This document shows positions 1-62,740 of a DNA stretch of 64,000 nt, piece by piece. Made by a program: the position numbers and the translations under genes. Every line of letters begins with the position of its first letter. Positions within the stretch are counted from its first letter, which is position 1. The notes under the pieces are model-generated. The model did not search any database and was not told the origin of the DNA. It saw nothing but the letters and a program-made list of their open reading frames with translations. This stretch comes from Xestospongia bergquistia. Its lineage: Eukaryota; Porifera; Demospongiae; Haplosclerida; Petrosiidae. The stretch lies in assembly GCA_963965975.1 (NCBI GenBank), contig OZ014414.1, positions 2,951,501-3,015,500 on the forward strand. Reading direction: 5' to 3'.

Positions 1-2099
1 GTGGAGTTGTAGGAAGTGTATTAAGCAGTGCCATGTTGGATTTAGGAGGAGTAGCTCTAGGAGCTGCAGTTGGTGGTGCCATTGGATATCATTATGCTAC
101 TAGTAAGTATTATACTGATCAGTTACACATGCATGGAATTAAATGATTAAAACAATGGTGTAATGTTATGAATAAACTTTGAATTAAAGTGAACATATTA
201 ATTATATACAATGCCACTTTAAACAGATACTGCTGAACTTCCTGACTGCAAGTATCGAGGTTATATCTTTTATGAATTAGTAAATGTGGAAACATGGAAG
301 ATGCGTTTTACAGTTGTTCAAGATAATACATATTCTGATGTAATAAGTGCTCATCAGTTTTAATGATGATTGTAATCATCAATGTTTCCTATATAGAAAA
401 CTCTAAAATTGAAATCTAAGTTTGGTAATGAAGAAGACAACTTTCCATTTCGTTTTGCTACTAAGGTATCTGAAGAGAATTTAAAATTATTAGGATTCCC
501 CGATGAAGCAGTTGATGGATGGGAAATAACACCACTACGTACACCACTTGTAGTAAGTAATCATAAATGTTATGTCTTTTGTGTGTGTGGAGGAGGGGGA
601 TGTTTTAACAAAAAATTATATGTAAATTACATGAACTGTAAGTTATCTGTTTTTACATTTAAATTACTTTGATTTAGATTAACAGGAAAGATGCTGATGA
701 CTTTAGTCAGTTAAGGAGTGTTAATCCTCCTAATATTCCAGTACAAGTAACTGCTAATCCTAGAATGAGTGACTTCAAAAATAATCTAAAACATACTATA
801 ACAATTGAAGGTATTGAAGTAACTGAGAGTCAAGCATTACCTACAATTGTGATTACTAGATCACTGATGAGTAATTTACAAAGTAAGTGTCTGTTTAATA
901 CTTATCTATGTAGTATTCTAATTATAACCTTACTCTGAGCATTCCAAATATTGTTATTAATAACTATTTTTAAGCTAAGTGCCAAAGCACAAGTCAGTCA
1001 ATTATGGTAAATACAGCTTTCAATTCTAAGCCAGAATACATATATTATGTACATTACCTTCTGTATATCCAGTAATGTTTATGTTATATAAGTTTTGTGG
1101 TTCATTATAATAACAAAAAACATGTATAAAGGATCATACGTATAATATACCTCAAAAAGTAACAACAAAGCAACCACAACCAGGCCACCACAATAGCAAA
1201 AACAACAAATATAACAAACCACAAAAAACCATCAAAGCTTAAAAATGAAGTTAAAGCTAATAAAATCGAATTTATAGTATGTATGTCTGCACTCAGTAAT
1301 ACAATTATCAATATTCAACAATGTAATAATAGATGTAGAATGAACAATGCCAGTGAGTGTGGGAAAAGTGGTGACAGACAGAGAAAGACTAAGCATACGA
1401 GATGCTTCTAATGTCCGGTCACAATGAGACAGTGAGCAAGGAAATGTAAACACAACTACAGCTTTATTCATTATCAATGAGTTAAGAAAGAGTTTCTTAA
1501 TGATACCTTACATGTAAGGATTTTACCAAAACTCCCTTATCTTGTTCAAAGGACACTTCTGTTTAAGCCATAACTATGTATTCTACAATTGACTTCCAGT
1601 TATAGATACCATCCATAATGAATATTGTGTTTGTATTTGTATTTTGAATTGTTGGCTGTTTTTGGAACAGTCTGACTTGGTAAATCGTCTATACATGTGT
1701 TAATACCAATAACATGATTTTATTTGTTTTATTCTTTAACAAAGCAAACATTGTTTTGTTTGATCAATACTAAAATTGTATATTTACCGTTTCATATTAG
1801 GTAATATAGTTAAAGGAGGTGTACATGTATCTTCTTTACCAGATCATATCTTGGATCAACAACCTACAATTCAAGAAATAACTACACATGCTAAAACTGA
1901 AAAATGGAATGAATTGGGTACACAATTACAACTGAACAGTGTCAATCTGGCTGAATGTCATAGTTTAACTAGTATGTATCAGTTATGGATTCAAGAGAAA
2001 GCTGATAAAGCAACAAGAAGGAGTTTGTTAGATGCTTTAAAAACTATTAAACAGAACAATGTAGCTATGGTTTATGAAAATTATTTAAAAAATCAATAG
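1..2099 (+). CDS. death-domain protein of the ZU5/death-domain family, 3' part
   Basis: Five exons fit in reading phase: 1-102 (enters from the left edge), 227-339, 397-552, 678-882 and 1801-2099, ending in TAG. The first exon encodes a hydrophobic Gly-rich stretch (LDLGGVALGAAVGGAIG) that looks membrane-inserted. The next three encode a region of unknown fold, with motifs ETWKMRFTVVQD, GWEITPLRTP and HTITIEGIEV. The last exon is a death domain of about 85 residues (LPDHILDQQPTIQEI to ATRRSLLDALKTIKQNNVA). The minus-strand copy at 52634-54840 has the same exon order plus an upstream ZU5 domain, so a ZU5 domain probably lies left of this window. Death domains form homotypic adaptor complexes in apoptosis and innate signalling; that role here is inferred from the family. 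A GTAAGT donor overlaps the stop codon, so a further exon is possible. No break was seen. Confidence 0.8.
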
Positions 2100-17146: not shown

Positions 17147-17442
17147 CATAGTTTTTAAATAATCTTCATAAGCATCTGCTACATTATTCTGTCTAATTGC
17201 TCTTAAAGCATTTAATAAACTCCTCCTTGTTGCTCCTCTTCCTTTCTCCATAATCCATAACTGATACATACTGGTACAATCATGACATCCAGCTAGAGAC
17301 ACACTGTTTAGTCCTAGTTTCACACCCAACTTGTTCCACTCTGCAGTTTCAGCATATGTAGTTAATTCTAAAATTTTAGGTTGTTGATCCAAGAGATGAT
17401 CAGGTAAAGTAGATACATGAAGACCACCTTCAACTATATTAC
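17147..17442 (-). CDS. death-domain exon, intact but isolated
   Basis: The exon starts after an ATATTAG acceptor and ends at an excellent donor (AACTATG|GTAAGT). It is phase 1 in and phase 0 out. It encodes LPDHLLDQQPKILELTTYAE, WNKLGVKLGLNSVSLAGC and ATRRSLLNALRAIRQNN, a complete death domain. If the donor is unused, the frame stays open to a stop at 17072. Similarity to the 52.6-kb copy continues upstream to about 17620 and then stops, and the preceding exons of the family were not found. The locus is probably a truncated duplicate, or an exon of a gene with very long introns. Confidence 0.6.
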
Positions 17443-17629
17443 CTAATATGAAAGAGAAAAATATACAATTTAATATTAATCTATAACCATGTATAGATAA
17501 CTTAATAAGTGAAACTGTTCAAAAAACTTTTGATAATTAAATATGAAATACAAACACAATATTAATAGTTGGTATTGTCCATGAACACGAAGTCCATACA
17601 TCAATGAGACATTGATACTATTCTTTAGA

Positions 17630-19600
17630 CAATATATACTAAATTTTAGAGCCTAACAGTATTAATTTATATTGGAGTATGCACTTCCTGCGCCTTACAT
17701 TCTCAATTACACTTTTAATATAAACAGTGAAAAAAGCCATTAAAAATATTTATCACAACACCAGAATAAAGTATAGAGACAGTTAACTTCATCAGATAAA
17801 TCAGGTTCATGATGTAATCAATGATACAGCACTTGTAGGTTTGGATATATTTTTAGTACACTATAAAGGTATGGTACTTCCAAAACAAAGATAGATAGAA
17901 CTCATGTGATTTATAGAGAACTAGATATCAGGCAAAGCTCCACTCTCTCTATTTTGTGAATTATAAAAGTTAATATTACACTGAGATACAAGTGACAGGT
18001 AGCTATAAGGTTCAGATAATAGATGACAACAATCTATGACCAAAGAATTAACTGATAAAATAATACAAGTTATTTTTTAAAACAAGCTTGTTGAGAGTCC
18101 TTGACTTGATTTATTAATGTGCTATGATGTTATTATGATATCATAATGTTACATACTAAGTAGAAAAAAGTAATAAAGTGCCCAAAGTAAGTTATATTTG
18201 TTTGTTAACAGTGATATTGATCTAGGTAGGTACAACCTGACTTGATGAACATTAGCAAATCAAACAAATTATAATTACAAACTATTTCTATAATTATTAT
18301 AATTTCATTCTTTACACAGTTGTAAAGATGGGAGATTTGGTAGCAGTATATACATTAGGTATGATACATGGTTATACTAATATATGTGGTTGTGTGTGTA
18401 TATATATATATATTGCTATATAAATGTTCAAAGAAAACTACCTTGAAGCTTCAAGCATTCAAAAATTAATTAGTTAGACAAATGATTATAGCTGTATAAA
18501 AACATTTTCATAAAAAATTCGTTTTTGTTTTAATTATCCACACAGTAAACTGACAATTGTTCATGTAATTAGTCAAACAGAGTTGGCTAGAATCTGTGGT
18601 TTGTGACATGCATCATCTACTGGGAGAATTGTCCATACTTACAAATGCATTTACAGTAATTATAATTTCTGAAATGTATAAGAACTGAACTGATTCTTAT
18701 AAAATGAATCTTATGAATCTTCAATGAATATTATAGAATGTTAAATAAACTTTAATAAGTGTAAATGTCTTGTTGTTATAAAAATGGATACATGCTAATG
18801 ATTTAGTTTGCTAGAAAATAATCTCTAATTCTCATAAAATGGACAATGTACGTGTGACTGGGAAAGCATACAAGATACAAGATTTTCCTTCGTTAATAAT
18901 GTACTATGCCATCAAAAATAATTCATACAGAACAAAAACCAATAATAAGTTTAATTTATTCATTACCATTTCTTTTATAAACCCTATCTCTTAGCCTTAC
19001 CCTATAATTTAAGTTGAACTTAAGGCTGTCTGTAATGACTATTGCTTGTGTTTTGAGTGTTTGATAATTGTATGATTATGTGTATATTCAGGATGACTTT
19101 ACATGTGAAACTAACTTCTTACATATAATATTATGTTTTGTGATGATCATTCATATCAATATTATTAATTAATGTTATAATGTGTGAGACAACTTCTTAC
19201 TGAAAGCAAAATATACAACAATGAACTTGTTATATTGTAAGTCGTGTGGCTAAAAAAAACAATAATATACTGCCTGTGTTTGCTAGCTGCCTGTATCTAT
19301 GCTTTCACATTGTAAATCGCCAATTGGTCCTATATGGACCCAATTCACACAACTATTTTTTCGGCAAATTTTTGTCCAAATGACTAAATGTTTAATTATT
19401 TCATAGTGTAATTAATTACTTCATAATTGGTAAGCTTCTAAATATGATTATAAGCTGGTTTTTCTAATACTTTAGAATTGGACTCATCATCTTTAATGAA
19501 GCTAACAGATCCTGCTATTATTTATTTATGAGTTAAAACATGCTATCATGTGCATGTTTTAGGTTGTCCTAAGGTTACGTACGATATTGGCTATGATAAT
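17630..19600. other. no gene seen; part of a tail-exon duplication block
   Basis: Mostly featureless A+T-rich DNA. From about 19000 it begins to resemble 55200-55900, the flank of another copy of the tail exons described at 19666-20262. Confidence 0.5.
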
Positions 19601-19665
19601 GTTTAATTTGAAGCAACATATGAAATGTCACATTTATTATTATCTTAAGTTGGCTTTATCAATTA

Positions 19666-19673
19666 CTAACTAA

Positions 19674-19709
<36 letters not shown>

Positions 19710-20262
19710 ATTTCCTTTTTGATGATAGCATTTCCTCCATCTGGTTGGGTTCTTTACGACCTATAACAAAAAAGAACATCATCGTAAACTAAATTCCTGC
19801 TAGATGATATTATAATAAAAATTTCAAATACTATGATTTGTGTTAAAGGTATAGGGTAAGTTGTATTTGTAACAGTGTTATAGACATTGTTAACATAGTA
19901 TACAATAATTAAGTTAATACAATGTACGTAGAAATTGATTATAACTATTGTATACCACTATTTCTCTCTTTCTTGGCTAACATGACAATAAATCAGTAAA
20001 GTATCTTTATTACATGTCACTAAATTAGACCATATCTTTACGTGTTTGTGGTATTCTTTTAGGTAATGAAGGTTTCATTGTGTGAGATGTTTCTTTTTTT
20101 TCCTGTAAGGTCTCCTACTAGCTGGTTTCTTACCAAATCTACTTGATACATCATATGACTCTAAGTCACTGTCAGATGATACAGAATGAATTATTTCATT
20201 CTTAGAAGGTATATCTTCATCAGACTCTGATACATTTGGTTGCGCTCTCTTATATTTTTTTC
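19666..20262 (-). CDS. second pair of Roc-COR tail exons (duplicate or alternative)
   Basis: Exon 20134-20262 (KRAQPNVSESDEDIPSKNE then SSDSDLESYDVSSRFG) ends at a GTAAGA donor. Exon 19666-19760 encodes RKEPNQMEEMLSSKRKS followed by a Thr tract made from a (TAG/ACT)n microsatellite, then TTTAGTTAG stop. Both are phase 1 and mirror the pair 21110-21253 and 20815-20888 used in the Roc-COR model. They could be an alternative C-terminus of that gene or the remains of a tandem copy; the sequence cannot decide. The Thr run is a microsatellite recruited as coding sequence. Confidence 0.55.
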
Positions 20263-20814
20263 CTGTAATAATTTTAAGAAACCTTACTATTTAGAGTAGT
20301 AGAAATCATTATAGCATCAATAATTTATATTTTACTTGTACAATATAGATTAGCTTGTATACCTGATAATCTTTACAAACCTGACATTAGGAAGTACATG
20401 TAACATTTACGAAAGTTTGTGTATGTATGTACTTAGTCATTGTTTGGGATATGTATATATAAATTTAGTGTCTACTTGATCATATCATTGGTTAGCGTTA
20501 CCATATCAAGATATGATCACAAGCTTTTTTAATGCTGTGCCAACTTTAGAAGGGGATTCACATACTCCTTATCCTTAGTGAGGCTAGGGGCTCTCGCTAT
20601 TAGTTGTTTATGAGTTGACACATGATATCATTTGCTAAGCAGTCCTAAGGCTATGTTATAGGCCTTGGAAATACTTAAACATAGTGGTTAAAAACCAGTA
20701 TTATTGTTACAATTGAGATTGAAAACAATTTATGAAACAATATGTGTACTACTAAGATTGGCTTTGACATGAATGAGATACAGTTGAAATTATTAATAAT
20801 ATAGTTAATTTCAA

Positions 20815-23800
20815 TTACTGACTTGAAGAAGCAGTATGTTTCCTTTTTGGTGGTGGCATTTCCTTCATCTGGTAGGGCCATTTATAACCTACAAAAAATA
20901 ACATGACAAACTAAATTGCTAATGGATCATATTAAACTAGTTAATATAAATTATCAATAGTAGGATTTGTTTTATAAGTTAATGTAAGTTGCATTTGAAA
21001 CAGAGTTAAAAACATTGTGAGCATGTTATACAACGATCAAGTTAATACAATGTCATTTTTGTGAGATATTCTTTTGTTATGTGAAGTCTCCCATGATCTG
21101 GTTCCTTACCATGTCTACTTGATACATCATATGACTCTAAGTCACTGTCAGATGATATGTAATGAGGTATTCTTTTCCTAAGAGGTATATCTTCGTCAGA
21201 CTCTAATTGATCAGAATGCAATTCATCTAATCTCAGTCTCTTCTGTTTCTTTCCTGTAAAATATTAAATAAATATTATTCTTTGGACTTAGTGGTTTTAA
21301 CAGAATATAATATTTGCACTATTCCTAGTATAAGCATATACATATATACATAGTGTGTAATATCATTTCATCGAGTCTATGCTTTATGAACATTTTAAAT
21401 ATCTATGATATCATTTGTTCAATGTTATATTATCAGTATGTTTTGGTATTATACCTAAACATTTATATAAAGAATCTATTATAGAAAAACCAAAAAGCAG
21501 TTGAAACATGACATTTAGTCATATAGTTTGAACTAGTTATTTTGCTATTTAGACATGTAACATTTAGCTTGGGTTGTTTCCAGTAATTACAAAAGTTTAT
21601 AAGCTCCATGTTTGTTGTTTTGTTCCCAGTCACTTTAGAGCCTGCTATAAATATCATTAATCCAAACATGTAAACTCTCTGTTGTATATCTCCCTTATTT
21701 ATCTGATTCAAAAAACTATATCTATAAATTAGTCCTTTATATATACCACTGTGATAATATACTTGTTGATATATTAGGTTGATTTCTATGTGTATATATA
21801 TTGATAGAACTATAGCACAGACTATTATTATGTCTGCTAATAACAAAAAAAGTTTAGTGGATTTTTTTATATTTTGAAAGCAATTATACAAACAAATTAA
21901 CAATCATTCCAACCATAGCTTAAGTCAGTATTTTAGCCATTAATATGTAGCTCCTGACTTCTCAGGATATTGATAATATCAACCATTAATACACCATAAT
22001 ATTATAATAGTGGAATGGAAAAATACAAATGTACACTACAGGCTAATTTAGTTAAAGAAATGTTTATTGACATACCAAATAGATTATGATCTTGGTTAAC
22101 GAGATGAGGAGGCGAAACAACTACAGAGAGATAAAGGATACAATTTGAAAATAAAAGATTCAATTAGTCACACAAATCAGTGTACTGTTGGTTGACATAT
22201 ATGTCAGCTGTTCAAGTTGCAACTTTATTAAATTTATCCTTTTATTTTTGCATACAATAATAAAATAAAATGAAAATGTCACTTGATAATATGTCATAGA
22301 TTAAATTTTAATAACTAAGTGCTCCACTTAGCAATTTATAAATATAGGCAAATTATCAGATGCTGTTGTTTTTAATTGTGTGGATGTCTTTCACACAAAT
22401 GGAATGAAAACGAAGGGCAACATTTACTTAAAAATAATAAATACAATCAATATTCCTATTCTATTATATATGTATCATTACAATAAATCAAAACTCACCA
22501 TTCATGGAAAACCAAGGTTGCTGACGAGTTTTATTAATAACATTAGAAGTACTGCTTTCATAACAAACAAGTGTTTTCTTGTCTTTCTTTAACTGACAAA
22601 AATGCTCTGTACTTTTATTTGAGCATGAGAAACAGAAAAAAAATTCTTTAATATTTCCTAGGTTAGCCATATATTGAAAGTTATTTATCACCTCACAAAT
22701 TCCTGCATGTACAACATCACGTATAATACTACATCTTTTGCAAGGATCTGAATAATATACTGCAATCCAGCAAATGCCATCAACTAAAAGAACGTCACCA
22801 TTATTAGTGTGTAAAGTGATGATATTACGATAACGTGGTGTGGAGTTTAGAGGACGTTTAAGATAAAAGGCAAGCTTATTTTCAGGATATAAAAGATTGA
22901 CAACTAATGCAGGGAAGATACCTCGAGGAAATGGCTTCATATCCCAAGAAAGAATTAGAGGATCAACGTGCTGCTTAAAAGCAGATGGTATGGAGCCATA
23001 ATTCATTGAAGGTGTAGTAGGAAGGACAGTTGGAATAAAATATTTTTCCTCCTTGGGTAGATAGGCTATAATGAGTAAACTGGTCATTAAATGGAGAAAA
23101 TTGTCCACAGTAAAGTCATGAGAGAATTTATTAAATATGGGTAAAGACAATAAATCTTTTGTAAAACATCCTTCGTCTTTGAGCTCCCTATAAACTCTTG
23201 GTACGATGTTCATGCCTTTTATACAATGAAATTTGAAATAATCAACTGTTTCAGGAAAAGAGAGGCTGATCAAATCAGAGAGTATATCAAATAACGGTTG
23301 TGAATGAAGAAACACTACATTAGGTAAGATATCAGGAAAGTAAAGGAAGACAGTCAAATTATGGTAGTACATTAAAGCTGCTTCAACATCATCACTTTTC
23401 ATTTCTAAGCTTTTGCCGATAACTTGGCATTTAGATTTTCTCACAATAAATATATTGGATTGACAAAACTTCTGGTCTAATTCTAACTGAAACAAAAACC
23501 ATCGGATAGGAATTTCTGCTTTTAGGGAAAAAGCACATATTTGTGAACGTATCTCATCAGCAATTTCTTTCTCGTGGTTGTCTCTGGCAATAGCATTGAC
23601 AGGAAAGATTACTGTATTTCCTTTTTCACGATACAGAATTGCTTGATCTTTTAGATTTAATTCTTCTAATTTTGACCAAAGAATAGAATTTTTCATTATC
23701 AATGATTCACCAGAATAACCAGGCATCAGCACTTTATCATAATATGTCCCTAGTACTATACAGTGTGGCTTTTGAGCATTATTTTCATTATTCGCACTTT

Positions 23801-52633: not shown

Positions 52634-54840
52634 CTAATAGCTCTTTAAGCATCTAATAAACTCTCCTCTTGCTTTCTCCTCAATCCACAACTGATATATA
52701 CTGGTATAGTCACGACATCCATCTAAAGCCACATTGTCTAGTCCTAGTTTCACACCTAACTGAAACCATTCTGCTGTTCTAACATGTGAAACTAATTCTT
52801 GTAGTGTAGGTTGTCGATCCAAGGAATGATCTGGTAAAGTAGATACATGTACACTTCCTTCAACTATATTACCTAATATGAAATGGAAAAACATACAACT
52901 TAGTATTGATCTAAGAAAATGTTATTTGCTTAGTTAAACAATGTAATAAGTGTAATTATATTATTGATATTCACACATATGTACATGACTTAACAAGTCA
53001 GACTGTTCAAAAAAATTCAAGCTACCAACTATAAACACAATATTTAAAGTTGGTGATGTCTACAAACAGTCCATACGTCAAAGACTGGTCTCATATACTG
53101 GAAGAATTGTCCATAATTATTGATGCTACAAAAATACTACAAAGATAATTATTAGACAAGCACTCACTTTGTAAATTACTGGTCAGTGATCTAGTAATCA
53201 CAATTTTAGGTTTATCATCAGCTGTTGTTTCACTACCAACAATTTCAATACCTTCAATTGTTATAGGATGTCTAAGTTTATTTCTGAAGTTACGCAATCT
53301 TGGATTAGCAGATACTAGTATAGGAATATTAGGAGGATCACGATTCCATGATGCAATAAAGTCACAAGGATTATTTCCACTAATCTATATAACATACATC
53401 ATGTAATTTAAATATATTTTTTCATTTAAATCTCACACCCACACACACATGCACACAAAACATATAACATCACTTACTACTGTAGGTGTACGTAGTGGTG
53501 TTATTTCCCACCCATGAACTGCTTTTTTAGGGAATCCTACTAACTTTAAATTCTTTTTTGTATAAATATCTCTTCTGGCTGCTTCACCCTGTTTTCTTGA
53601 TGAAGGTATTGTAGACACAAAACGAAATGGAAAGTTATCTTCTTCATTACCAAACTTAGATGTTGATTTTAGAATTTCCTATATAAGAAATGTTAATGAT
53701 TAAAGTAATAATTTAAGGCAAAAAACATTTATTACATTAGAATATGTGGTATCTTGAACAACAGTGAATCGCATCTTCCATGTTTCCTCATTTACATCTT
53801 TATAGAATATATAAGCCTGATAGTTGCAGTTAGGGACTTTAGTACCTGTATAAAGTAAGTATTGTGTATAATTAATATGTTGGGATTAATTCAATATTGA
53901 CAATAAGCATACAATTGCTGACTCACTAAGACTGTTCTAAACATTCTATTCCATACATGTATAACTGATCAGTATATACTTACTATTTACATAATGACAT
54001 TTAATAGCACCACCAACTGCACCTCCTAGAGCTACTCCTCCTAGACAAAATATGGCACCACCAACTACACCTCCTAGAGCTACTCCTCCTAGACCCAATA
54101 TGGCACCACCAACTGCACCTCCTAGAGCTACTCCTCCTAGACCCAATATGATACCAACCAACTGCACCTCCTAGAGCTAATCCTCTTAGACCCAATATGG
54201 CACCACCAACTGCACCTCCTAGAGCTACTCCTCCTAGTCCCAATATGGCACCACCAACCACAGAGCCTAGAACTATAATAGCTAGGTATGAAAATTGTTT
54301 GAGATGTATAGTGCCATATTGTGAACCAGGACAAAATGATCCTCCTGATAGATATTCAAACTTAAAAGGTGGACCAGATTTAGCAATGACAAAACTGAGA
54401 TATTTTGTTTGTTTCTTATCAGTAATGTTAGCACAATGTTCTAGCAGAACTGTAACTGGTTTTTTGAGCTGAGATGAACTAGATACCGATATATAACACA
54501 CACCACTGATAAGTTGGCTATTTTCAGGAAATTCAAATTTGCTACTCCACAATCCATTAATAGTAATTTCATATGAAGTGTCTACTGGTGTGATAACTTG
54601 TGCAGGTATTAAAATTTTTAACCCGCACTCTTCAACTGATAGCTGTTGATCTTTAGCAGCACTAACCTTAGAATAGTTCTTTCCTACTATCACTATTTCT
54701 TCTGAATAGATCAGTTTAATAATAATTATATCATATACTAGCAATACCTTCTTCTAGTTGAGTTGATTGTTCCTTTTCTAGTTGCAACTTTTCTACTATA
54801 TGATGTTCAGTTTCACTATGTTGCATCATTCTTTCTGCAC
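52634..54840 (-). pseudogene. ZU5 - Gly-repeat - death-domain protein, frameshifted
   Basis: Exons in phase: 54748-54840 (coiled-coil, HHIVEKLQLEKEQSTQLEE), 53984-54701 (ZU5: VSAAKDQQLSVEECGLKILI, DTSYEITINGLW; then the hydrophobic Gly repeats), 53736-53845, 53478-53678, 53168-53384 and 52634-52872 (death domain LPDHSLDRQPTLQELVSHV). ZU5 plus a death domain is the layout of UNC5, ankyrin and PIDD signalling proteins; a UPA domain was not recognised. Two lesions are visible. A 1-bp insertion in the Gly repeat (near 54150) makes the 718-bp exon one base too long for the next phase. A deletion of about 8 bp in the death domain removes its last helices. Copying of the repeat may have caused the first lesion. 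The N-terminus was not found. Confidence 0.75.
54001..54252 (-). repeat. about five tandem 48-bp units coding a hydrophobic Gly repeat
   Basis: Each unit encodes LGLGGVALGGAVGGAI, 16 residues, small and hydrophobic with GxxxG spacing, as in packed membrane helices. Each unit is close to the length of one membrane span. The plus-strand paralogue at 1-102 keeps one similar unit. One copy has an extra base (near 54150) that shifts the frame. Confidence 0.85.
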
Positions 54841-55899: not shown

Positions 55900-56488
55900 T
55901 TACTGACTTGTAGTAGTAGTGGATTCTCTTTTTGATGATAATGTTTCAATCATCTGGTTCATTCGTTTATGACCTATACAAAATCAAATGTGACAAACTA
56001 AATTTCTAATGGATCACATTAAACTACTTAGCATAAATGAAGAATACTATGATTTGTGTTAAAGGTTAAACATTAAATTGCACTCGTAACAGAGTTAAAA
56101 TATAGTTAACATGTTATGCAATAATGAAGTTAATACAATATATATAGAAATTGATCCAAACTATTGTCTTTCCTATTTCCCTCTTGTTTATCAAACATAA
56201 CAATGAATCAGTAAATTATCTTTATTACTTGTCAGTAAAACAGAATATATACCTTTATGTTCATGTGGTATATTTTTAGGTAATGAAGGTGACATTTTCT
56301 GAGAAATTGCTTTTTTGTGAAAAGGTTTGCACTAGTTGATCCATTATCATGTCTACCTGATACATCATAGGACTCTAAGTCACTATCATATGATACATGA
56401 TCAGATCTTCGTTTACGAAGAAGTACATCTTTATCTAAATCTGATTGAAGAGAATATGGCTCTAATCCCAGTCTCCCCTCTCTCCTTT
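55900..56488 (-). pseudogene. Roc-COR tail-exon pair, copy 3
   Basis: Exon 56348-56488 encodes the Ser/Asp segment with DLESYDVSGRH, but its donor has changed from GTAAGG to ATAATG. Exon 55900-55973 encodes HKRMNQMIETLSSKRES and a Thr/Ser end, then TAA. The surrounding 55200-56560 matches 19000-20280. With the donor lost and no upstream GTPase exon found, it is probably dead. Confidence 0.65.
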
Positions 56489-58837: not shown

Positions 58838-61148
58838 TTACTGACTTGAAGTAGTAGTAGGTTTCCTTTTTGGTGGTGGCATTTCCTCCATCTGGTTGGG
58901 TCGTTTATGACCTATATAAAAAGAAAAACATGAATAAAATTCCTAATGGATCACATTAAAGTAATTAATATAAATTATCAAGACTAGGATTAGCGTTAAA
59001 AAAATGCAAGTTGTATTTGTAACATAGTCAAAAAAATTATTAACACATTGTACAATAATCAAGAAAATACATTATACATTGAAATTATTTTTTTGGCATT
59101 AAAGATAAACAAATAAATAAGGTCATTCAAGTGTATATAAAAAAAGGTGATAAGACAATATTGCAAATATATAGATAATATAAGAAAGATAAGAAATACA
59201 CATACAACAAAACTAGTTGTCCTTGTAAGACAAAACTTAAATTATTCAATGTGACCTTCAGCCATTTGGAGGTCAATAGGTTCCTCCACATCCTCAGATG
59301 CTGGATGCTTTCATGATGATCTAAACCCCCTTATGGACATGATGGATGCTCTTAGAAGAGCAAAACTTAAGTGGCAGTGAATCCAGTTCAGTGTTTTACT
59401 ATATGGAACATCTCTCTTGTCACTGATCATAGATGCAAGCCTCTTATAGAAAGTTGTTGCAGCCTTGCCCATTGCACCTGTTGTTGACATCACAAGTGGT
59501 GTAAATGTAGCATGTTCAACTTCCAGTATACATTGCTCATATTGTTTTTTCTTTTCTTGTTCATGTCTTTTATACACAGATGCTAAAGGACCATGACAAT
59601 TTGATTGGGCGCTAGGGTTGAACACCCTCACATCTAAAAATGCCTTCTCAAATCTGCCTCCCCAGAAACCATACATAGAAATATCCAAACGAGCACCATC
59701 GTCAATAATTGCAGAGAGATGTGACAAAGTCTCACCTGAGAGTGGCTGCAGGTGAGGTTCTATTGAAACACAATGGCAGACCTCAGACAATAATGAGACT
59801 GTGATGTCTCTCACTTCATTATGTCTCACCGCAGGAAAAACCCCAGTTTTGCAAGTTAGGGCATGATCAATACTGAATGGCTGGCTGCAGCTACAGTGAG
59901 AGGGTGGATTCTGAAGTGTCCAGTCATATCGAAGAGAGAGGGCATCCCTTAATGCAGATTTATGTAGAGCAAAACCATGATCATCAATGGGCAATGCTGT
60001 CAGCCATGTTGAGGCTCTTTTTTCTTGTAAAAGCTCCATAGAACGTTGTAATGGAGCTGGAAGTCAGTTTTGAAGATTCCTGGCATCCTCCTTCTGCCTA
60101 GATCGATTGTTAGAGCGAATTCTGGCTTTAATATCTTGTTGAAGAGCCTGGCAGTCAGCAAGCTGATGGTCTTGTTGAAGGATTCATTCAATAAGAGGAA
60201 CACAAATAAGTTGTGAAGTGTCGTGTTGTTCTTCAGCAATAGCAACAGGATTCATCAAGCCTAAACCCTTTAGTCTTGCAGGAAGTGCCAGCAATTCCAG
60301 GACTAACTTGCCTGGGGAGACTGTATTTTATTACTTATTCTTTTAAAGTGTCATTTTGGGAGACATGCCTTTTTTATGAAAGGTCTTCCACTAGCTGGTT
60401 CCTTACCATATCTACGTGATGCATCATATAACTCTAAGTCACTGTCAGATGATATGTAATGAGATATTCTTTTCCTAAGGAATACATCCTCATCAAACTC
60501 TGATTGATCATAATAAAAATATTCTAACTTCAGTCTCTTCTTTTTCTTTCCTTTAATCTTTTTCAAATTGTTTGTAATATCTATGAAATAAAAAGAAAAA
60601 AATCAGCAACACATCATCACATCATAAAAGTGTCTAGAGGTCCAGCAACAAGTCTATACATTGAATGATATATTTTTTTAAAATATTATCAGTAACTAAT
60701 TAAGTACAAACATCCTGTTAGATCCCTATCGCTATCAAAAATAAAAGTATGTTATAAAAATATAATAGAGCTATAATATGAATACACATTATACTGTGTG
60801 AATGTGGTATGATGGTTACAATAATTATGGTAATTAAAAAATCAGTTCAGTTCACCACAGTTGAATGTCAAGAGGCAAATATTTACCTGTTAAAGGTCCA
60901 GGATTGAGTTCAACATCACCTGATAATATAAAAAGCAACAAAAGGAACATAACCAGGGAGAAAACCAGATTTGTAACATCTCCATTTTCAGAACACAGCA
61001 ATGACTCCACCAATCCAGTAACATTGACAGCTCCTTTTGTAGCACTACGTAGTACATGACAACAATGCCATAATCTAATGTTGATTGTCCATTGAGAAAT
61101 ATCAATCATTCCAAATGGAAGCAGTGAGGTAACAGAGAATAGTTCCAT
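58838..61148 (-). CDS. 2A-leader protein with the Roc-COR-type tail
   Basis: Three exons join in phase: 60887-61148 (ATG), 60407-60580 and 58838-58911 (TAA); 169 residues. Residues 60-75 are a hydrophobic segment (LVFSLVMFLLLLFIL). It runs straight into SGDVELNPGP (residues 76-85), a full match to the 2A consensus D-x-E-x-N-P-G-P. 2A makes the ribosome skip the Gly-Pro bond, so two products are expected: an 84-residue leader ending in Gly and an 85-residue protein beginning with Pro. The latter is basic then acidic (KKIKGKKKKRLKL, SSDSDLELYD, QMEEMPPPKRKP), with nuclear-signal-like Lys clusters. Its tail exons are paralogues of those of the Roc-COR gene. 2A-linked signal peptides on sea-urchin NLR genes are a known precedent. 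No break was seen. A retroelement fragment fills the second intron. Confidence 0.75.
59311..60330 (-). pseudogene. C-terminal part of a retroelement protein (5'-truncated insertion)
   Basis: An open frame of 242 codons (59311-60039) contains ASTWLTALPIDDHGFALHKS, CSCSQPFSIDHALTCKTG (a CCHC-type zinc motif), ARLDISMYGFWGGRFEKAFL then DVRVFNP, and KKQYEQCILEVEHATFTPLV. Upstream to about 60330, in shifted frames, are LPARLKGLGLMNPVAIAEEQ and QALQQDIKARIRS. The LxGLGLxxP block corresponds to the one in the reverse transcriptase at 30416-31857, so this is the downstream part of a related element. A zinc motif followed by D..DVR is the layout of a restriction-like endonuclease in R2-type LINEs; that assignment is inference. 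It sits in the second intron of the 2A gene. Confidence 0.6.
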
Positions 61149-61638: not shown

Positions 61639-62740
61639 TTATTTAGTCATTTTTCTGGCATCATTGATCGAAATATAAGTATAAAGGTGCTTTGGAGCTG
61701 AAAATGTTCTTTCAGACGTTGCAGACGTTATTGGTGAAGTTAATGTTAAACAAAGCAAAAGATGTACTGAAGAGAATATGTCCTTAAAGATATCATTTAT
61801 GTTCATTGCGTCACATATAGTATTAATTGAAGTGACCAACAGTTGGCAAGGCAGTTTTTAACATATCATGAAGAAGTGGAAGTTGCTTGCTTAGCTCTGT
61901 AAAGGCAATATCTTTTGAAAAGCATGACTCTTGCATCTTTTTCACCTCACTTTCAAAATTTTCGTTATTTGCTGCTTTTATAAGTAGCTGCTCCATGGAT
62001 AGCACTGGTGAAATGTACTATGCTTGAAAGCAACATTCCAGCTCACCAGACAAGAGATCACACGCTTCATAATACAATTGCTTAAAGTAGTTTTTCACAT
62101 CAGAAAAAACATAGGGTTCAGCTCCACTATCATATCGCTTAGGACATTTTTTTCTCCTTGGCACTACTGGTTGTTCAATTTCATGCTTCTCAGCAAAGCC
62201 AACAACCCTTGTATAGAAGTCATTGTCAGATTATAAACATTTGAAATGTGCCTTTGCAGCTTCTTAGGCTGAGATTGTGCCATGAATAGTAATTTTTTTT
62301 CTGAAGAGAAAGGGAGACTTGTTCAGAAGCAGAGAATAAATGAAAACTCACCATTAGGCCAAAAAGTGTGTTGAATTTCTCCACTATGGATTAAAAGCAT
62401 ATGGACTCTTACAGAGTCCATATGCTTTTAATCCATACTCATCCATTGTTGTCTCGTACATTTCCTCCAAAGTTTTAATGAACACTTTGTAATCTTTGAA
62501 AATGACATTGATAGCACCAGTTTGAGCAGTCACCTAGTCATGCATAATGACTTAAGACTGGTTGTGCTTTCATTAGTTTCATCAAGCTTTGTAGAGAATA
62601 TTTGAAGACGTTTGGGTGAAAGTTTGATTAACTTTCCCACTTTACGCACAAGCTCCAAGGCATCTCTAATGCAAATGATATTTCTGCTAATGTCTTGAGG
62701 ACATAAGTTTAATGAGTGTGCATAGCAATGCACAGGCACA
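61639..62740 (-). pseudogene. hAT transposase (DUF4371/dimerisation type), decayed
   Basis: Blocks in order on the minus strand: PVHCYAHSLNLCPQDISRNI (62735), IRDALELVRKVGKLIKLSPK, then SMEQLLIKAANNENFE, LPLLHDMLKTALP, and SPITSATSERTFSAPKHLY, the hAT dimerisation signature (61720). Frameshifts and a palindromic insertion at 62385-62437 separate the blocks. The RNase-H acidic residues could not be placed. It is dead. Confidence 0.75.
62385..62437. repeat. perfect 25-bp hairpin inside the hAT relic
   Basis: TATGGATTAAAAGCATATGG and onward for 25 bp, a 3-nt loop TAC (62410-62412), then the exact complement. It has the same small-loop form as the hairpin at 12263-12347. Confidence 0.85.

Follow-up and report, generated by a model that had tools for sequence, protein, structure and literature searches.

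Does a cellular gene of this animal begin with a hydrophobic 2A (StopGo) leader, and if so, what kind of protein stands behind it? The question is raised by a locus on the reverse strand of a 64,000-nucleotide stretch of DNA from the sponge Xestospongia bergquistia (contig OZ014414.1, positions 2,951,501 to 3,015,500; hereafter the window), where an initial annotation had proposed a three-exon host gene with a 2A peptide at the end of its first exon. We find that this exon belongs to a large family of leader exons, and we think it reasonably likely that the family is a shared first exon set before many immunity and cell-death genes, by which StopGo would give one mRNA two protein locations. 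In the window the leader has the following parts, a slash marking the skip point:

60887..61109 (-): coding part of the leader exon, 74 codons plus 1 nt, donor in phase 1
61068..61109 (-): N-terminal module MIDxxQWRxxIGLW, in the window form MIDISQWTINIRLW, with R8 and G12 altered
60924..60977 (-): hydrophobic segment, residues 45-62, Kyte-Doolittle mean 2.72 over 18 residues
60894..60917 (-): 2A/StopGo octapeptide DVELNPG/P, with the predicted skip between codons 60897-60899 and 60894-60896

A six-frame pattern search found a single complete D(V/I)ExNPGP in the window. This octapeptide, DVELNPGP at 60894-60917 (-), adjoins the hydrophobic run LVFSLVMFLLLLFILSGDVELNPGP at the end of the latter, so that a complete 2A directly after a membrane-like segment, as first annotated, is confirmed. 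Compared by eye, the upstream context LFILSG fits the L-rich class ending in A/S/C-G (PMC12846837, in excerpt). A structure model places a helix at residues 45-62, with low confidence, and a Pfam scan returned no family for the leader open reading frame (ORF) or the exon-2 ORF of the window. Translation probably starts with MID at 61109 and not at 61148, since 102 of the 120 database homologues listed begin at the module (+/-1 residue) and several genome copies carry a stop codon directly upstream of it. From this start there are 72 codons to the Pro of NPG/P, and the leader would probably measure 71 residues up to the skip point, in place of the 84 first proposed.

The leader was then used as query in a protein search against the assembly that contains the window, 21 contigs totalling 146 Mb. 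At least 149 leader-like places were found (150 rows listed, two being pieces of one copy), with 134 of the 150 rows at E<=7e-7 and many of the places arranged in tandem clusters. A pattern coding for the octapeptide was met at 161 sites genome-wide and the reversed pattern at 0; given these counts and the number of leader-like places, we rejected a chance origin. Of 100 octapeptide sites listed, 76 fall within a leader row, and the remaining 24 include PHD-finger elements, described below, and a divergent leader (L032) that precedes a NACHT exon. Of 75 leader places listed on contigs C1-C8, 64 retain the exact D(V/I)ExNPGP. In 38 genome copies the leader runs 64-78 codons to the Pro, and W14 of the module lies 49-63 residues from the skip point; none of the 38, once aligned, lacks the hydrophobic segment, whose 18-residue mean never falls below 2.09. 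Splice sites were in phase 1 at every locus with inspected junctions, and from these sites the leader exon is predicted to be spliced to exons downstream.

What stands downstream was assessed by comparing the at least 149 leaders with Death-like matches (within 2 kb) and NACHT matches (within 8 kb), the wrong strand and the upstream side serving as controls; all neighbour counts are among the matches listed for the leader, Death-like, NACHT, GBP and COR searches. A Death-like exon (<2 kb) or a NACHT match (<8 kb) stands downstream on the same strand for 106 of 149 leaders, compared to 0 on the wrong strand, which bears out the annotation of a host-type gene as opposed to a long interspersed nuclear element (LINE). 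Type-A Death-like exons follow 75 leaders on the same strand within 2 kb (wrong strand 0, upstream 1), at distances of 38-1415 bp with a median of 58, and type-B exons follow 23 (wrong strand 0, upstream 1); one or the other type is found for 96. NACHT lies downstream within 8 kb of 48 leaders (wrong strand 0). Counted in reverse, a leader is present for 78 of 103 type-A and 25 of 150 type-B matches, and for 47 of 95 NACHT rows. The other 48 NACHT rows include all 29 on contig C2, and for two of them (C1:27370103 and C1:27476556) an upstream 2A site had been overlooked by the leader search. GBP follows at least 5 leaders (20 of 27 GBP rows compared) and COR at least 3 (7 of 146 COR rows compared). 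The 29 NACHT matches on C2 (8.83-9.15 Mb), 0 of them with an upstream 2A leader, form a natural comparison set in the same genome.

Twenty leader loci, about one per cluster across the list, were inspected to a depth of ~10 kb. Pfam searches with ten ORFs from these loci (E<=0.001) returned families in six, i.e., Death twice (one below cut-off), NACHT, GBP, Roc-COR and ankyrin; at this threshold there was none for L009 exon 2, the L009 ZU5-like ORF, the L023 GTPase-like ORF (none at 0.1 either) or the L027 ORF. Additional Pfam scans gave NACHT in L016 and ankyrin in L017. The Death-like fold assignment is based on Pfam together with a structure model.

Relatives of the leader were also found in databases, where 190 proteins resemble it. 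D.E.NPGP is kept in 113 of 120 homologues listed, the query itself having contained a 2A, and W14 lies 51-65 residues from the skip point in 109 measurable copies. Five UniRef NACHT proteins of Amphimedon queenslandica carry LLLLSGDVELNPGP near their start, of which four (P0233, P0234, P0244 and P0246) also carry MIDVSQWRASIGLW, while the fifth, P0247, has the 2A without the module. Like the leader genes described here, the Amphimedon proteins show MIDVSQWRASIGLW...LLLLSGDVELNPGP followed by NACHT (Pfam) and, by eye, Death/CARD-like stretches; unlike them, they have a longer leader, with the octapeptide from residue 122 or 127, and extra hydrophobic stretches. Because the module is shared with these proteins, it probably predates the split of the window's animal from Amphimedon, as judged from sequence. 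The sequences behind the 2A differ among P0233, P0234, P0246 and P0247 (IGRVWN..., ITGNPKDIL..., MIDDQPD...), which suggests exon shuffling or alternative splicing at this point. A search for a transcript-derived spliced protein brought up Amphimedon gene models and entries such as P0121-P0124 that, by eye, look like genomic ORFs reading across very short in-frame introns; no proven cDNA was among them.

How might such an exon work? Its product begins with the MIDxxQWRxxIGLW module, which a free spacer separates from the hydrophobic segment and the 2A/StopGo peptide. When the ribosome reaches NPG/P, the hydrophobic segment would not yet have left the exit tunnel. In the event of StopGo, a leader of ~71 residues would be freed and the receptor (Death, NACHT, Ank, GBP, ROCO or ZU5) would be made as a cytosolic protein with Pro as its first residue. 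If the bond is formed instead, the hydrophobic segment would emerge later and tether the fused receptor to the membrane or route it there, so that the 2A would fix the ratio of membrane to cytosolic protein. The exit tunnel holds roughly 30-40 residues. Since the distances from W14 to the skip point in the genome (49-63) and in the databases (51-65) exceed this, the module would already be outside the ribosome at the 2A pause. An extension of the scheme, which we hold to be unlikely though worth stating, is a leader that serves as a regulated switch during translation: a factor on MIDxxQWRxxIGLW would pick skip or no skip and thereby set the ratio for the receptor battery together.

Selection on the leader was estimated from 38 leaders (251 pairs) as the ratio of nonsynonymous to synonymous substitution rates (dN/dS). 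The values were 0.20 for the N-terminal module, 0.97 for the spacer, i.e., near-neutral, 0.25 for the hydrophobic part and 0.15 for the octapeptide; these leaders were picked by a pattern of 2A plus start module, which depresses the values of module and octapeptide, and the spacer is gappy. The contrast of spacer and hydrophobic part should be free of this bias. Synonymous codons of the octapeptide were less variable than those of other conserved leader codons (Mann-Whitney P 0.037; 7 versus 19 columns), an observation that we do not press, as 2A codon choice follows no rule according to the excerpted text of PMC12846837. It runs counter to the published view, in which the choice of codons is irrelevant. 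The selection of copies just described is one of several points that count against a shared, working leader. The window's subgroup shows no purifying selection, the ratios of synonymous to nonsynonymous codon changes being 4:5 (L009), 3:8 (L010) and 6:6 (L011). The structure model of the leader is weak (predicted local distance difference test, pLDDT, 67), the weakest 16 of the 150 leader rows include short partial matches, and the exact octapeptide is absent from 11 of the 75 leader places on C1-C8. The upstream control for NACHT is above zero (30 of 149), which we attribute to the tandem arrays. A Death-like or NACHT match is missing for 43 of 149 leaders; the window gene and L010 fall among these 43, yet both have a downstream ZU5 exon. 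Pfam Death was matched by just 3 of 12 type-B Death-like members, and profile searches of PDB with the Death-like exons gave no match at E<=0.1.

The window's own gene was examined beyond its leader and has the following features:

60407..60580 (-): exon 2, 174 nt, phase 1-1, a fusion in which nine codons from the start of a Death-like exon run into a charged linker exon
58846..58911 (-): exon 3, a 66-nt linker cassette, phase 1-1
59090..60345 (-): intron-2 insertion absent from the paralogue L010, containing a transposon-like ORF at 59311-60063
57001 (start): out-of-phase 53-nt copy of the cassette
56349..56486 (-): second copy of the linker exon
55908..55973 (-): a further 66-nt cassette, in phase like exon 3
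54262..54702 (-): ZU5 exon (Pfam ZU5, 23.2 bits against a cut-off of 21)
52670..52873 (-): partial C-terminal Death domain, followed by a frameshift and a stop (Pfam E 0.14, below cut-off)

The junctions first proposed, 60887 to 60580 and 60407 to 58911, fit GT-AG borders and keep the phase-1 frame. An end of the gene at 58838, however, is probably wrong: both tail exons are phase 1-1, the stop at 58838-58840 lies just beyond a possible donor A/GTCAGTAA, L010 is colinear and a ZU5 exon follows downstream. The gene probably extends past 58838 toward a ZU5-Death body. The same donor recurs in other copies. Colinearity with L010 spans window positions 61337-51001 at ~85-94% identity in five main blocks, the exceptions being the insertion at 59090-60345 and smaller gaps. 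A pattern of the same acceptor and donor picked out four cassettes like exon 3, one of them in L010 and the others in the window. All have 66 nt and stay in phase except one, which has 53 nt and is out of phase; none turned up in L009 or L011. Protein-level relatives of exon 3 at 20889 and 19761 fall outside this pattern.

Relative to the paralogue L009, whose C-terminal Death domain is matched by Pfam at E 2.7e-6, the window gene lacks the body of the Death-like exon. Its reading frame breaks down in a Gly-rich repeat right after ZU5, and no NACHT match stands at its place among the matches listed. With the Death exon mostly deleted, the frame lost after ZU5 and leader changes lacking purifying selection, the window copy is probably a decaying ZU5-Death member. 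It is probably a poor example of a working leader gene, the phenomenon being the family.

Other features of the window were noted. A Gly-rich hydrophobic tandem repeat, ILGLGGVALGGAVGGA, adjoins ZU5 at 54004-54275 (-) in the window and is also found in L010. The 250-codon transposon-like ORF at 59311-60063 (-) in intron 2, absent from L010 and without a confident Pfam family, may be the 3' end of a LINE. A hAT transposase has left a relic upstream of the leader at 61639-61857 (-), where Pfam matches the hAT dimerisation region slightly below its cut-off (E 2.6e-4). Linker cassettes occur a second time at 17153-21254 (-), as a set accompanied by a C-terminal Death domain, with no leader or ZU5 match nearby. 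The C-terminal Death exon at 1800-2096 (+) encodes the same protein sequence as its counterpart in L009; its position assigns it to the leader gene of L011, which starts upstream of the window, so that a second leader gene enters the window.

Four other explanations were weighed. Skipping might be near-complete, the receptor always being cytosolic and the freed, hydrophobic-tailed peptide functional through its MIDxxQWR module. The conservation of the module (dN/dS 0.20, a value lowered by how the copies were chosen), its presence in four Amphimedon proteins and a canonical octapeptide in an L-rich context, of a class active in vitro (PMC12846837, in excerpt), would suit this; it leaves the variety of receptors sharing the leader unexplained, however, and the sea-urchin leader acts as a dual-targeting signal (PMC4981915, in excerpt), and we rate it as rather unlikely. 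It is improbable that the leader is a plain signal anchor with a 2A inactive on this animal's ribosomes: although all 38 copies retain the hydrophobic segment, and membrane-bound sponge NLRs have been proposed (PMC12909245, in excerpt), the octapeptide is retained in 64 of the 75 places on C1-C8 and in 113 of the 120 homologues listed, despite a drifting spacer.

The small gene first annotated, a leader followed by an 85-residue Lys-rich nuclear protein, has an open frame from 61109 to 58838 with plausible splice sites, followed by an in-frame TAA; against it, both tail exons are symmetric phase-1 cassettes of which more copies exist, and a ZU5 exon lies downstream in both L010 and the window. 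We regard such a gene as quite improbable. The nuclear product is probably wrong, the tail resembling a linker and a remnant of the Death exon before a ZU5-Death body, and the 85 residues are most likely a linker. A short nuclear protein was rejected, the tail exons being phase-1 cassettes in what is probably a decaying ZU5-Death copy. Very improbable is a 2A borne by a transposon, as the 5' part of a LINE carried passively in the genome. Elements in which a Leu-rich run and a 2A directly precede a PHD finger do exist here (L029 and L030, with L033 alike by eye); the PHD finger is matched by Pfam in L029 and below cut-off in L030, which also has a weak RVT_1 (reverse-transcriptase) match. These LINE-type elements resemble the leader in their Leu-rich run and 2A close to the N-terminus, but they lack the MIDxxQWR module and have the PHD finger (with the weak RVT_1 of L030) downstream, whereas 75 leaders have their type-A Death-like exon within 38-1415 bp. 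They are possibly a source or a relative of the leader's 2A. L029 lies at C4:8604200-8607200, and ten sites in C4 8.60-8.91 Mb, one of them inspected, have near-identical octapeptide codons. A LINE 2A was rejected for the window, where the leader lies outside retrotransposon ORFs; Death-like, NACHT, Ank and GBP follow the leaders, and the PHD/RVT elements are separate. A leader exon confined to LINEs, the outcome that the initial annotation had named as its refutation, does not fit these neighbours.

The shared first exon acting through StopGo can be compared with systems already described. According to the excerpted text of PMC12846837, cellular genes use StopGo rarely, and an L-rich, 'LLLLSG-like' upstream class (motifs 2/6) has been defined for StopGo/2A, motif 6 of which was tested and active. 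The leader resembles this class in its LLILSG or similar context before D(V/I)ELNPGP and differs in that the class consists of RNA-virus sequences (PMC12846837, in excerpt), while here a cellular first exon is repeated. Membrane-bound NLRs have been proposed for sponges (PMC12909245, in excerpt), and among the papers listed from open-access PMC none described a 2A leader on a sponge immune gene. If the activity is real, the at least 149 leader places before several immune-type architectures, with relatives in Amphimedon, would place sponges among the major cellular users of StopGo, and the proposed membrane-bound NLRs would gain a concrete reading, in which the leader is perhaps often shed in translation.

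The sea-urchin NLR genes, named in the initial annotation, are the right comparison (PMC4981915, in excerpt). Their 26-residue leader was shown both to skip and to target (Roulston 2016, PMC4981915, in excerpt), so that a host gene with a 2A leader is not new in kind; the sponge pattern is, however, far wider than a single gene. Like the sponge leader, SpNLR2A is an N-terminal hydrophobic run ending in SGDVExNPGP, in many copies before NACHT-type immune proteins; unlike it, SpNLR2A has 26 amino acids and, by eye from the published primer, no MIDxxQWR module (both PMC4981915, in excerpt). Among the matches listed, NACHT stands behind 48 of the 149 sponge leaders, and the window gene has ZU5. 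The sponge leader has an exon of its own, 64-78 codons, a free spacer and several architectures behind it, and probably comes from another phylum. Alignment and Kyte-Doolittle values place an N-terminal 2A next to a signal-like hydrophobic segment in it, as in SpNLR2A; it is not a short leader of ~26 amino acids free of other conserved modules, and we do not class it as a member. The activity of SpNLR2A has been demonstrated (PMC4981915, in excerpt), whereas the sponge leader is known here from its sequence. By analogy, it may function like the sea-urchin NLR 2A signal, combining StopGo with dual targeting.
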